From contig JAXHNP010000007.1 of NCBI GenBank assembly GCA_034520365.1, forward strand, positions 1 to 64,000: 64,000 bases of DNA, written 5' to 3'. This DNA is from Desulfobacterales bacterium (lineage in GTDB: Bacteria > Desulfobacterota > Desulfobacteria > Desulfobacterales > Desulfosalsimonadaceae). The notes below the pieces were generated by a model, which worked only from the letters and a program-made list of their open reading frames with translations, made no database searches and was not told the DNA's origin. Below are positions 41 through 51,831 of the stretch, piece after piece; positions within the stretch are counted from its first letter, which is position 1, and every line of letters begins with the position of its first letter. The position numbers and the translations under genes are program-made.

Positions 41-2221
41 TTACTCATCATCTATAAGCAGCATAAGCACTCCGGGCAGGGCCTTGGGACGGAAATCGGC
101 CGTGAGGTTACGGTTTCTTGTCGCCTGGAAAGAGTACTCTTCATCGGTTGAGACAACGCAGGACCCTGCCAGGCCCGGCCATGTCTCGATCCAGTTGGTC
201 AAGGCAAAGCCCTGGTTCGGCAGAGCGGTCATGGTCACGATCGCTTCGTGATTGTAGGAGCCAGAACCTGTGACCATTCCGTAGTTCGATGGTCTGGCAG
301 ACCCTGTAATGTCGTAACTGTTTTGCATCTGGCTGAAATTTGCCTGCAGAGTGCGGTTGCCCGTGACCGTGAACATATACTGCTGGCTGCAGGAGACAAC
401 GGTATTCCCCTCGGTCCAATGGACGAAGACATATCCGGACTCGGCTGATGCATTCACTGTAGCGGTTGAACCATCAACATAGGTGCCGCTTCCGGTGACC
501 GTGCCCCCGTCCGTGGGGGCGGCGGATACGGTTATGGTGTGGTTGCTGATCCACTTGGCATAGAGGGTCACCGCCTCGTTTACCGTGTATAGAGCGCCTT
601 CCGCATAGTCCGTGCCCAACCCGTCGGCCTGGGTGTTCCATCCGGCAAAGGTGTAGCCAGTCCGGGCCAGGTTGCCGGTGTTCTCAGCCAGGGTCAGGTC
701 CACTCCGTGGGTCTTGATTTGATCGGCCGGGGCCGTGCCGCTGTCGGCCTCGTTGGCATCGTAAATCACGGCGTAAGTGTTGAGAGTCCATTTGGCATAG
801 AGGGTCACCGCCTCGTCTGCCGTGTATAGAGCGCCTTCGGCATAGTCCGTGCCCAACCCGTCGGCCTGGGTGTTCCAGCCGGCAAAGGTGTAGCCAGTCC
901 GGGCCAGGTTGCCGGTGTTCTCAGCCAGGGTCAGGTCCACTCCGTGGGTCTTGATTTGATCGGTTGGGGCCGTGCCGCTGTCGGCCTCGTTGGCATCGTA
1001 AATCACGGCGTAAGTGTTGAGAGTCCATTTGGCGTAGAGGGTCACGGCTTCATTGGCCGTATAAGTGCCGCCCGCGGCATAGTCCGTGCCCGAGCCGTCC
1101 GCAGCCGTGTTCCACCCCGCAAAGGTGTATCCGGTTTTGGCCAGATTGCCGCTGTTGGTGGCCAGAGTCAGATCAACATCATGCGTCTTGGTCTGATCGG
1201 CCGCGGCCGTGCCACTGTCGGCCCCGTTGGCGTTATAGGCAACGCGGTAGGTGTTGACAGTCCATTTGGCGTAGAGGGTCACGGCTTCATTGGCCGTATA
1301 AGTGCCGCCCGCGGCATAGTCCGTGCCCGAGCTGTCCGCAGCCGTGTTCCACCCCGCAAAGGTGTATCCGGTTTTGGCCAGATTGCCGCTGTTGGTGGCC
1401 AGGGTCAGATCTACATCGTGCGTCTTGGTCTGATCGGCCGGGGCCGTGCCGCTGTCGGCCCCGTTGGCGTTATAAGTAACGGGGTAGGTGTTGACAGTCC
1501 ATTTGGCGTAGAGGGTCACGGCTTCATTGGCCGTATAAGTGCCGCCCGCGGCATAGTCCGTGCCCGAGCCGTCCGCAGCCGTGTTCCACCCCGCAAAAGT
1601 GTATCCGATTTTGGCCAGATTGCCACTGTTGGTGGCCAGGGTCAGATCAACATCGTGCGTCTTGGTCTGATCGGCCGGGGCCGTTCCGCTGTCGGCCCCG
1701 TTGGCGTTATAGGCAACGGGGTAGGTCGTCGGGTCGGTTTTCACTTTGTAGGCCGTGTTGTCCTGGGCCGTCCCCGCAAGTTTGATCCACCCCATGTTTT
1801 CGCTCCACGCGTGCCCGGAAAAGTCCCCCGTGGCCAGGTCGATGCTCACCCCGCCATTTGTTGGGCTGAAGTTGATCCATCCAGCGTTCTCGCTCCAGGC
1901 ATAGCCCGAAAGGGCCCCGGTGCCGGCGTCGCGGTTCACGCCCCAGTTAGTCGCATTGGTGTTGGCATAAGGACCCCCGGCGTCCGCGCCCAGCTTGATC
2001 CACCCGATATTTTCCGCCCACACGTAGCCCGTCAAATAGGTCGCTTCCACAGTTGCCTGCGCACTGGTAGACCGCCAGTTGTGCCAGCCCGCATTCTCAC
2101 TCCAGGCATATTTGAAGGTCGCGTCGATATTGCCTGCCCATACGATCTGCACACCAAAAAGGAGAAGACAAATCAGTCCCATGATTACTGAGCGGACAAT
2201 CGTTTCCATATTTCTCTTCAT
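41..2221 (-). CDS. Secreted InlB-repeat surface protein
   Basis: Predicted extracellular or cell-surface repeat protein. I chose the ATG at 2221 because an AAAGGAG ribosome site lies 7-8 nt upstream and the protein then opens with a clean signal peptide (MKRNMETIV..., cleaved near VWAG); an upstream in-frame start would add 36 residues without a signal. Domains in order: four degenerate WSENAGWI-type motifs (about residues 35-165), five 79-residue InlB B / Listeria-Bacteroides repeats (YNANGADSGTAP...YTFAGWNT...VTLYAKWT), then two divergent InlB-type repeats with GGTVTGSGTY-like cores. It ends in KALPGVLMLLIDDE, the hydrophobic-acidic tail shared with other secreted proteins here. Substrate or partner unknown; adhesion or matrix display is an inference from the repeats. 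Confidence 0.85.
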   Translation of the reverse strand: MKRNMETIVRSVIMGLICLLLFGVQIVWAGNIDATFKYAWSENAGWHNWRSTSAQATVEATYLTGYVWAENIGWIKLGADAGGPYANTNATNWGVNRDAGTGALSGYAWSENAGWINFSPTNGGVSIDLATGDFSGHAWSENMGWIKLAGTAQDNTAYKVKTDPTTYPVAYNANGADSGTAPADQTKTHDVDLTLATNSGNLAKIGYTFAGWNTAADGSGTDYAAGGTYTANEAVTLYAKWTVNTYPVTYNANGADSGTAPADQTKTHDVDLTLATNSGNLAKTGYTFAGWNTAADSSGTDYAAGGTYTANEAVTLYAKWTVNTYRVAYNANGADSGTAAADQTKTHDVDLTLATNSGNLAKTGYTFAGWNTAADGSGTDYAAGGTYTANEAVTLYAKWTLNTYAVIYDANEADSGTAPTDQIKTHGVDLTLAENTGNLARTGYTFAGWNTQADGLGTDYAEGALYTADEAVTLYAKWTLNTYAVIYDANEADSGTAPADQIKTHGVDLTLAENTGNLARTGYTFAGWNTQADGLGTDYAEGALYTVNEAVTLYAKWISNHTITVSAAPTDGGTVTGSGTYVDGSTATVNASAESGYVFVHWTEGNTVVSCSQQYMFTVTGNRTLQANFSQMQNSYDITGSARPSNYGMVTGSGSYNHEAIVTMTALPNQGFALTNWIETWPGLAGSCVVSTDEEYSFQATRNRNLTADFRPKALPGVLMLLIDDE
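542..1726 (-). repeat. Five tandem 237-nt InlB-type coding repeats
   Basis: The 79-codon unit occurs five times head to tail inside the preceding gene. The two C-terminal units (542-1015) form one subfamily (DANEADSGTAP, AENTGNLARTG) and the three N-terminal units another (NANGADSGTA, ATNSGNLAKTG). Within a subfamily the DNA is almost identical, which points to recent expansion or gene conversion. Confidence 0.9.
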
Positions 2222-2444
2222 TTTCGATCTCCTTTGGTTCGACGTTACGCCTGCATACATGCCCAACGGAATCTCGTCGCATACCGGATGTAGTTGCGAA
2301 TTCATTCGCACGGATAGGTTAGGGGCCATTGTTAAACCCGCTGTACGGTTTAAGCCGCACCTACGAAACAGCTATCGGAACGATTCACCGCGGGCAGGGG
2401 GCCACCCCCTGCACCCCCGTCAAAGGTCCAAAGATTCAAAGGAT

Positions 2445-3368
2445 CTATTGTCCTCCGCGAACGGGCCACACATAGTACGTGTAGGTCTTATTGGCGTTGT
2501 AGACGCTGCCATAGCGCAGGTCCACGCCCCACACGTAGCTCGTATTGTACGCGCCCGTCGAACTGGACCAATAGTAGTTCGACTGCACGCCCGTAAAGGC
2601 ATCTCCCGATGACCACTTTCCTGTGTTGTCAGCATTGGACAAGGCCGGATTATAATACCGCCAGTCAATCAGGCTCAGGAGTTCCATCACGTTGGGGAGC
2701 CGCCAGTCGCCCTCTACTGAGCCGTCACTAAGACCGCACTCTCCGTCGTTGAGGGCGTTACAGAATGTCAAAGCATCCTCCCATGTGGCTCTGCCTGTAC
2801 TTCCAGTCGTACTGTTGTAATCGGCATTCTTCAGCCAGATCAACCCCGTCAGGTTGTCGGTCACCGTGCCGTCGCTGTTGTCTGTAAACCGGAGGTTGGG
2901 CCAGGCAACGCCTTTCTGAAGGTCGCCGTCAGATCCTTCTGGGGCAGGGTCGAGAGGAACTGTGGGTGTTTGCCCCGTCCTGGGAACCGGCGAGGGGTAG
3001 GTGGCAATGGTCCCGGTCCCGGTGCCGGTTTTAAGACCCCATTCACCGCTCTTGAGCCCCCAGAAGGTCTTGCCGCTGGCCACATCCGCCGCGCCAGCGC
3101 CATTGTCGTCATCCACGGCCGGGGCCTGCCCCATCACCTCGTCCAGGGTATGGCCACTCGAACCGGGCCCGGCCGAAGGCTCAGTGAAGGGCCCGGAACG
3201 CTTGGCCCCTGCAGCGCCTGTGTCCAGACGGTTGTAAAGGTCCTCCAGCGTGTACATGGCGCTGCCCGCACTGGTGGGATCGCCCGTGTCATCCAGGCTT
3301 CCCGCAAATCCGACATTTGAGATAAGCAAGATTAGTAAAATCACCAAAACAGCATTCACATGGCGCAT
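2445..3368 (-). CDS. Secreted DUF1566 (Lcl C-terminal, C-type-lectin-like) protein
   Basis: Secreted protein with an N-terminal signal peptide (MRHVNAVLVILLILLISNVGFAG). The ATG at 3368 is preferred over the one at 3380 because GGAGG lies 5 nt upstream of it. After a low-complexity linker comes a DUF1566 domain: FTDNSDGTVTDNLTGLIWLK, a WRLPNVMELLSL motif, YYWSSST, and a Tyr/Asn-rich end finishing in YYVWPVRGGQ. DUF1566 domains have a C-type-lectin-like fold and are known targets of diversity-generating retroelements; the Tyr/Asn/Ser/Thr-rich last 40 residues have that look, but no reverse transcriptase or template repeat is in this window. It lies tandem with the InlB-repeat gene and lacks the Leu-rich acidic tail. 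Confidence 0.85.
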   Translation of the reverse strand: MRHVNAVLVILLILLISNVGFAGSLDDTGDPTSAGSAMYTLEDLYNRLDTGAAGAKRSGPFTEPSAGPGSSGHTLDEVMGQAPAVDDDNGAGAADVASGKTFWGLKSGEWGLKTGTGTGTIATYPSPVPRTGQTPTVPLDPAPEGSDGDLQKGVAWPNLRFTDNSDGTVTDNLTGLIWLKNADYNSTTGSTGRATWEDALTFCNALNDGECGLSDGSVEGDWRLPNVMELLSLIDWRYYNPALSNADNTGKWSSGDAFTGVQSNYYWSSSTGAYNTSYVWGVDLRYGSVYNANKTYTYYVWPVRGGQ

Positions 3369-3938
3369 GTCATCCTCCATTTGTGTTTGAGAAACCCCGG
3401 TTCAAACCTCAAATCTTCACTGTAAACCTTAGCGATTTATGACTTCAAAAACGCAGAAAATTAGAAAACCACATCCCCTAACTGAGCCCCGGCCATTTTT
3501 AGCTGGCTTAGAAGCCCCAAGTCTCCGGTGTTCCGCCACCTTCTAAAACCAGAAAGACTTCCAACCCGAACCGGGCTCACTGAAAGCACATCAATTGGCG
3601 TTGTGGGATTTAAAAGGCGCTTCAAATCTAACGACCATCATGAAACTTTCACAACTTAAGTTATTCACAACCCTGGTTATTTGGGCGAGCATTGAAAGTG
3701 ACTTGCTTTTAAACGTGTTGAACGGGCACATCTTTTGGATAACTCATGCAATTCAAGGCAACAAAAACGTGAGATATGTATACGGTATCCGTTCTTTCTT
3801 CATACCCCAGGGGGGGTTACAGATAGCTTACGGATTCCGATTTTTTGCCGTTTTTGATATTTTTTTTGAAAAAGGAAGGCGCTGATAAAAAACCTCTGAA
3901 ACCCGTCCCGGATTCCAGGGAAACGGCAGGACTTTCGA
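3369..3938. other. Gene-free spacer with structured leader candidate
   Basis: No convincing gene. On the minus strand, ahead of the DUF1566 gene, about 3430-3580 holds several short inverted repeats (GGTG/CACC around 3535, CCCGGTTCGGG near 3565, TTCTGG...AGAA near 3545), so the transcript leader may fold. I could not match it to a known riboswitch. The rest (3590-3938), including a 96-codon plus-strand reading frame, shows no recognisable protein. Confidence 0.4.
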
Positions 3939-51421: not shown

Positions 51422-51831
51422 CTGAGAAGCCACGCCAGAGCTGTCCGCGGAGGGCCATCAGATTCCCTGCCCCAGCGACCGACAATGAAGACGGTACGAT
51501 TACGGACCACAATACCGGCCTTGTATGGCAGAAATGCAGCCATGGGCAAACATGGGATGAAGCAACAAACGAATGCAGCGGAACGCCAGCCGCTTATAAC
51601 TGGCAGGAGGCCCTGGCTGCCGCTGAGGGTCTAAGACGGGCAAATCATACCGACTGGCGGCTGCCCGACATTAATGAACTCCAGACCCTGATTGATGACG
51701 CAACATCCAATCCGGCAATTTTTGACATTTTAGCCGATGATACCATCTCCGGTTATTACTGGTCGTCGACAACCTATCCCGGCGGTCTTGTTTCCTTATT
51801 CATCCAGCAGGAACAAAAAAATCCCTGGTAA
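51422..51831 (+). pseudogene. Broken DUF1566 gene
   Basis: From 51481 the frame reads DNEDGTITDHNTGLVWQKCS, WQEALAAAEGLRRANHTDWR, LPDINELQTLIDDA and GYYWSSTTYPGG, a DUF1566 domain; it lacks a start and its variable C-terminal end. Just upstream, in another frame, HARAVRGGPSDSLPQR is the end of a second such domain, so a multi-domain protein has been broken by a frameshift near 51465. At about 51785 the frame runs into the antisense of the next gene's tail codons and stops at 51831. Confidence 0.75.

Follow-up and report, generated by a model that had tools for sequence, protein, structure and literature searches.

The final 44 or so codons of a DUF1566 gene lying near one end of contig JAXHNP010000007.1 (C7) of a Desulfobacterales bacterium are in all likelihood, by recent ancestry, the variable region (VR) of a diversity-generating retroelement (DGR); the gene would now be an orphan target whose DGR core has most likely been lost. 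The window analysed here comprises 64,000 nucleotides (C7:1-64000) of this genome (G000), whose assembly (8 contigs, 4.33 Mb in total) has a completeness of 99.39%. That the tail is of DGR type is well supported by comparative sequence evidence of three kinds: the codon positions at which it differs from its nearest homologue, the agreement of its variable columns with the template repeat (TR) of a relative (G030), and a 3' element shared with verified VRs. An initial annotation had already read this C-terminus as a hypervariable DGR target; the type of target is borne out on these grounds, but not the present-day action of a retroelement.

The gene encodes a protein of 311 amino acids which ends, according to the translation of its open reading frame (ORF), in ...YYWSSSTGAYNTSYVWGVDLRYGSVYNANKTYTYYVWPVRGGQ. 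Its score against PF07603 is 100 bits, compared with a curated cut-off of 34.9, and it therefore belongs to the family. The protein has a signal-like N-terminus (by eye), a poorly modelled middle part and a C-type-lectin-like C-terminal domain, and is probably an exported surface protein. In the predicted structure the confidence measure pLDDT (predicted local distance difference test) is 74-92 across most blocks of residues 161-310 and falls to 58-63 at residues 241-260. The best PDB match of the predicted fold is the C-terminal domain of Legionella Lcl (E=1.2e-4), followed by C-type lectins (E=0.016 and weaker); as modelled, the protein would have the fold expected of a DGR target, C-type-lectin-like and with its variable residues close to the C-terminus. 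The closest named homologues come from desulfobacterial metagenome-assembled genomes (MAGs), and others from groups as far away as Gammaproteobacteria, Nitrospirae and Gemmatimonadota. The tail described in the initial annotation is real, with Y, N, S and T together making up 21 of the 43 final residues.

Codon positions provide the first line of evidence. The nearest homologue among 79 genomes, found in G076 (same order, different family), is 71% identical and was picked as such, not on account of its tail. Over the body of the gene (residues 30-267) the two sequences show 202 differences, 119 at third and 83 at first or second codon positions, while the tail (residues 268-311) shows 37, only 7 of them at third positions and 30 at first or second ones (Fisher p=9.0e-6 against the body). 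Among replaced codons, 14 of 18 in the tail and 21 of 64 in the body keep their third base, and codons in which the first and second bases have both changed and the third is kept, such as AAC/CGC, TAC/CTC, GGC/CAC and CGC/TTC, account for 8/18 and 4/64, respectively. Judged from the sequences, this is the pattern that rewriting of AAY template codons would be expected to produce.

Control comparisons are consistent with this interpretation. Tail differences at codon positions 1/2/3 number 2/2/22 between a DUF1566 gene on contig C6 of the same genome and its same-genus orthologue, 8/8/1 and 15/11/3 in pairs from G070 and G034 that have one template in common, and 15/13/7 between the window gene and G076. 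A scan of DUF1566 domain pairs at least 45% identical covered 215 pairs, one of them a self-pair. A p of roughly 0.001 or lower was reached by only four, namely the window-G076 pair (p=1.6e-4) and three pairs of G070 domains from contigs C1 and C10, one of these domains being a verified VR.

The second line of evidence comes from G030, a member of the same family as the window genome, in which a homologous target, an Avd-like protein, a template and a reverse transcriptase (RT) with a C-terminal MutS domain I follow in this order. The G030 target is 59% identical to the window protein (P0001) in a three-sequence alignment, and over 132 bases its VR differs from its TR at 18 template adenines and at 1 other position. 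Residues differing between the window and G076 occupy 12 of the 15 columns that are AAC or AAT in the G030 template and 6 of the 29 other columns (p=2.6e-4), and 22 of the 37 nucleotide differences fall on G030-template adenines (p=4e-4). Further complete or partial DGRs with DUF1566-type targets are present in G070 and G034. The DUF1566 domains on C1 of G070 show the codon signature together with those on C10, and one DGR therefore apparently serves DUF1566 genes on another contig, as remote targets. Additional TR/VR pairs were noticed in relatives at L107 (G013), L108 (G003, same genus) and L105 (G070:C6), as were DGR RTs with a C-terminal MutS domain I (PF01624) at L064 (13260-14741) and L102 (6410-8038).

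The third line of evidence is the 3' element, in which three TTTGR units spaced 8 bases apart are followed by a GC-rich hairpin. To assess the octamer repeat, a chain of at least three T-runs with a spacing of 7-9 bases was required within 100 bases. A blind TR/VR search of 35 RT loci gave pairs in 23; of 32 pairs listed 29 were counted, as two had too little sequence behind the VR and one was a reverse-strand reading. The chain is found behind 16 of the 29 VRs, some of which share one DGR, behind none of the 29 templates, and in 1.5% of random stretches from the same loci. It also occurs behind mid-gene VRs (L102 and L103), which speaks against a plain terminator. Among 259 other gene ends it was found at seven, four of which belong to DUF1566 genes (window, G076, G032 and G053). 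A viral set (79 loci, 59 VR readings), tested after the idea had arisen, gave a weaker effect: 9/59 behind VRs and 1/59 behind TRs against a background of 1.1%, with three of the 59 VR readings, including one of the nine, on the reverse strand and probably not real VRs. A downstream hairpin of the kind associated with DGR targets is also present behind the window gene, though its loop is not GRNA. As a general mark of VRs the hairpin proved too weak alone, being found behind 6/29 VRs, 1/29 TRs and 92/2991 random stretches. A differing T-rich octamer-phase tract, by eye roughly (CCTTTTAC)n, lies behind the VR at L155, L156, L157, L159, L161, L163, L164 and L105; it is absent behind the template, and the target at these loci is apparently of another type.

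The whole element was also captured in a covariance model (R1), for which 12 stretches located behind other DUF1566 genes were used, the window, G076 and all verified VRs being excluded. Over 60 sources R1 gave 31 matches at E<=0.1, including its 12 training stretches; the remainder include the verified VRs L145, L167, L148, L151 and L102, as well as G076. When the context of 15 matches other than the window was read, 10 lay behind a recognisable DUF1566-type end and L145 behind a verified VR, while four (L136, L135, L144 and L059 at 11850) lay behind neither. R1 has no match at the loci of seven other DUF1566 domains of the genome. The further DUF1566 domains on C7, at 51493-51777 of the window and at G000:C7:90790-91674, are likewise without the element by this model. 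Features of the locus are collected in Table 1.

Table 1. Features of the DUF1566 locus in the window and of the DGR on contig C5
Feature	Position	Strand	Description
DUF1566/Lcl_C gene	2445..3380	minus	311 aa; ORF translation, Pfam, predicted fold
Lcl_C domain PF07603 (formerly DUF1566)	2457..2870	minus	residues 171-308, E=7.7e-29 to 1.4e-28
Putative VR by origin	2448..2579	minus	residues 268-311; 18/44 residues differ from G076
Core of variable columns	2478..2555	minus	residues 276-301; 14/26 columns AAC or AAT in G030 template
T-rich octamer-phase repeat (TTTGRNNN)x3	2420..2440	minus	directly after stop; sole such match in window
GC-rich hairpin	2394..2412	minus	stem 8 bp, loop 3 nt (TGG)
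Whole 3' target-site element	2380..2455	minus	R1 match, 55.8 bits, rough E=3.4e-12; sole match in 64-kb window
Neighbour gene	41..2329 (start perhaps near 2221)	minus	N-terminal YAWSENAGW-like motifs and List_Bact_rpt/InlB-like repeats
C5 prophage DGR	G000:C5 ~53.3-56.4 kb (L022 9260-12439)		tail-like target (498 aa) with VR; template immediately downstream; RT (353 aa)

The initial annotation had stated that the window holds neither an RT nor a template repeat and had proposed a search of the genome for both. Both statements hold. At E<=0.001 the genome has one RVT_1 match, which is located outside the window on contig C5, and the RT of G030, used as a query against all 8 contigs, finds this C5 RT (34% and 30% over two stretches), a MutS-like match and nothing else. 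The proposed search thus reveals one DGR, in a prophage on C5, and neither a cognate template nor a cognate RT for the tail. The target of the C5 DGR matches a phage tail family and is located among phage tail genes; its TR and VR, compared over 116 bases, differ nowhere except at template adenines. A 132-aa ORF with no Pfam or NCBIfam match is located where the accessory protein might be. With adenines read as any base and up to 3 mismatches, the C5 template finds itself and the VR belonging to it and nothing else, so that the C5 DGR was rejected as the mutator of the DUF1566 tail. A tblastn search with three Avd proteins, made in the window and five other loci of the genome, gave no match there.

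Several results weigh against descent of the tail from a DGR variable region. No template for it was found. Under the rule that each template base is either the VR base or A, two patterns (67 and 61 bases, together covering 2464-2580, up to 3 mismatches) recover only the tail itself from the whole assembly; the same rule applied to the VR on C5 recovers the C5 template with 0 mismatches, and the method thus works. BLAST of the gene end against the assembly (E<=10) returns the gene end, two DUF1566 paralogues, which match through a conserved stretch further upstream, and nine short matches (15-29 bases), none of them a template repeat. The tail of G076 has no template in G076 either, and the template pattern of the window tail has no exact match in viral contigs. 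A search of 389 relatives with a combined inferred template gave no match, but this search was insensitive, as it missed the real G030 template too.

The signature itself also has weak points. It depends on a single pair of homologues at order-level distance; 7 third-position differences remain in the tail, and 15 of its 37 differences lie off the G030-template adenines. The targets of G032 and G030, which have no known template in common, show no signature (tail 16/15/19), and among 12 further pairs of homologues, taken from loci that have no clear template, it reaches p<0.05 in 2, so that many such DUF1566 tails may be old or otherwise changed. As to the 3' element, G076 has no hairpin by the measure used, and of 10 loci that have TTTGR-type tracts behind verified VRs R1 matches only 5 at E<=0.1, missing L064, L103, L149, L150 and L169. 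Finally, the residue and codon composition which the initial annotation took as a signature of adenine-directed mutagenesis is not diagnostic. The last 46 codons, stop included, do contain TAC 6, TAT 3, AAC 2, AAT 2 and AGC 2 times, but adenine is not enriched (0.218 in the last 156 bases and 0.218 in the rest of the gene). Tails of homologues are commonly Tyr- and Ser-rich, and tail composition alone is thus no evidence of mutagenesis.

Under the favoured explanation, a DGR reverse transcriptase would have copied an AAC/AAT-rich template RNA in the recent ancestry of the gene, with random bases placed opposite the template adenines. The resulting cDNA would have replaced the last 44 or so codons, perhaps aided by the octamer-plus-hairpin element behind the stop codon, and the varied residues on the C-type-lectin-like domain of a probably exported protein may have allowed different ligands to be bound. 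The DGR core (avd, template and RT) would then most likely have disappeared, leaving the target behind as an orphan.

An intact, active DGR might instead be located outside the assembly, either beyond the end of C7, 2.4 kb past the tail, or on another replicon from which it acts in trans. The window starts at the end of C7, and nothing is visible past the neighbour gene; the 3' element is still present behind the tail, and the arrangement in G070 offers an example of a DGR apparently serving genes on another contig. Furthermore, the window and G076 differ at third positions in 7/44 tail codons and 119/236 body codons, that is, the tails are closer to each other than the bodies are, which suggests recent rewriting. 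Against this stand the high completeness of the assembly, in which the G030 RT finds no relative beyond the C5 RT and the MutS-like match, and the corresponding situation in G076, where the same query has no match at E<=1e-6 and no template was found. A DGR of this kind is considered rather unlikely, though by no means negligible.

Exchange of tails between alleles by recombination, or their transfer, without new mutagenesis is improbable. A tandem pair of DUF1566 genes in a Nitrospirae MAG (L138 7953-10986) does speak for it: 540 identical bases are followed by a short run of changes and then by tails in which 22 of 44 residues differ, with changes at all three codon positions. Such exchange leaves both the conservation of third bases and the match to AAY columns in the window gene unexplained. 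A single template for the L138 pair was rejected, as it would require 46% adenine and two in-frame stops; near-identical octamer repeats were observed behind the stop codons of these two genes.

It is slightly less probable still that no DGR was involved and that diversifying selection has acted on a tail which is simply the usual ligand face of a DUF1566 protein. DUF1566 tails are variable in general, and the composition of this one is typical of the family. Selection, however, would not spare third bases, which account for 119/202 differences in the body and 7/37 in the tail; the other three strong pairs of the 215 are all within G070, which has a DGR, and the 3' element would have no explanation. 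Diversification of the tail by the C5 prophage DGR, which holds the sole DGR RT found in the genome, can be practically dismissed in view of the specificity of its template for its own VR.

Homologous loci in other genomes bear on the loss of the core. P0001 alone gave no match in public genome contigs, and an alignment used as the query gave 32 loci. A blind template finder reported a clear pair only at the G030 locus; its other reports were rejected, as they traced back to stretches of N at L121 or to weak repeats at L126. A full-length RT of the G030 clade is present in 1 of the 32 loci (G030) within the stretch covered, and since several contigs are short its absence is not proven at every locus. 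Pieces of avd were found beside targets of the same family in Thiohalocapsa marina (with an internal stop) and in a deltaproteobacterial MAG, and pieces of an RT beside a target in a Parabeggiatoa MAG. Short matches resembling the start of avd lie beside targets in a Gemmatimonadota chromosome, and in G032 the start of an ORF behind the target is avd-like by eye only, with no BLAST match. These remnants suggest that loss of the core has occurred in this target family. In the Gemmatimonadota chromosome CP070758 (L126 7986-14021) five consecutive DUF1566 genes were observed, with two short avd-start-like matches among them.

The gene next to the window target is a possible functional partner of it. 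In 19 of the 32 public loci a neighbour with YAWSENAGW motifs lies no more than 1.7 kb from the DUF1566 domain, measured from centre to centre; G076 has no such neighbour. As this neighbour is common and a full core is rare, the gene pair often persists without the core. A bolder proposal is that the two-gene locus, present in several phyla, is a docking site for transient DGR cores, with the octamer-plus-hairpin element as recognition signal and orphans diversified in trans; this is put forward tentatively, as a doubtful possibility.

DUF1566 is reported to be the commonest Pfam domain among DGR targets (PMC4159848, PMC6642488), and the DGRs described there resemble the present case in the kind of target, as do those of G030, G070 and G034, but differ from it in that the present assembly yielded neither a cognate template nor a cognate RT. 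Target sites of the BPP-1 type (PMC3240598) likewise have an 8-bp GC-rich stem shortly downstream of the VR; their loop is a 4-nt GRNA, whereas here the loop has 3 nt and the T-rich octamer repeat stands between stop and hairpin. The available text of PMC3240598 describes no tandem or direct repeats behind the VR. Remote variable proteins of cyanobacteria (PMC7517822) are similarly C-type-lectin-like targets far from any RT, but their genomes do contain a DGR, unlike the present case, in which no cognate one was found. The C-terminal domain of Legionella Lcl (PDB 8q4e; PMC11162425) has the same Pfam domain and C-type-lectin-like fold; unlike the window protein, Lcl contains a collagen-like region, and conservation of its C-terminal domain among L. 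pneumophila strains is described as exceeding 97%.

Both the use of DUF1566 proteins as DGR targets and the presence of a hairpin downstream of the VR are thus already known (PMC4159848, PMC6642488, PMC3240598). In the open-licence literature no description of an octamer repeat behind the VR was found, nor any precedent for an orphan DGR target recognised by codon signature and 3' element. According to a large metagenome survey of DGRs, targets that do not adjoin an RT escape its method (PMC8144416). The present case suggests that a DGR target can be identified even where RT and template are missing, by the codon positions at which it differs from homologues and by a 3' element shared with proven VRs. 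Should the octamer repeat truly act as a recognition signal, any genome could be searched for remote and orphan targets, and a new testable cis element would be at hand for how DGR cDNA finds the VR rather than the TR. If the docking-site proposal is true, the element could also guide the search for DGR targets that have no RT nearby.
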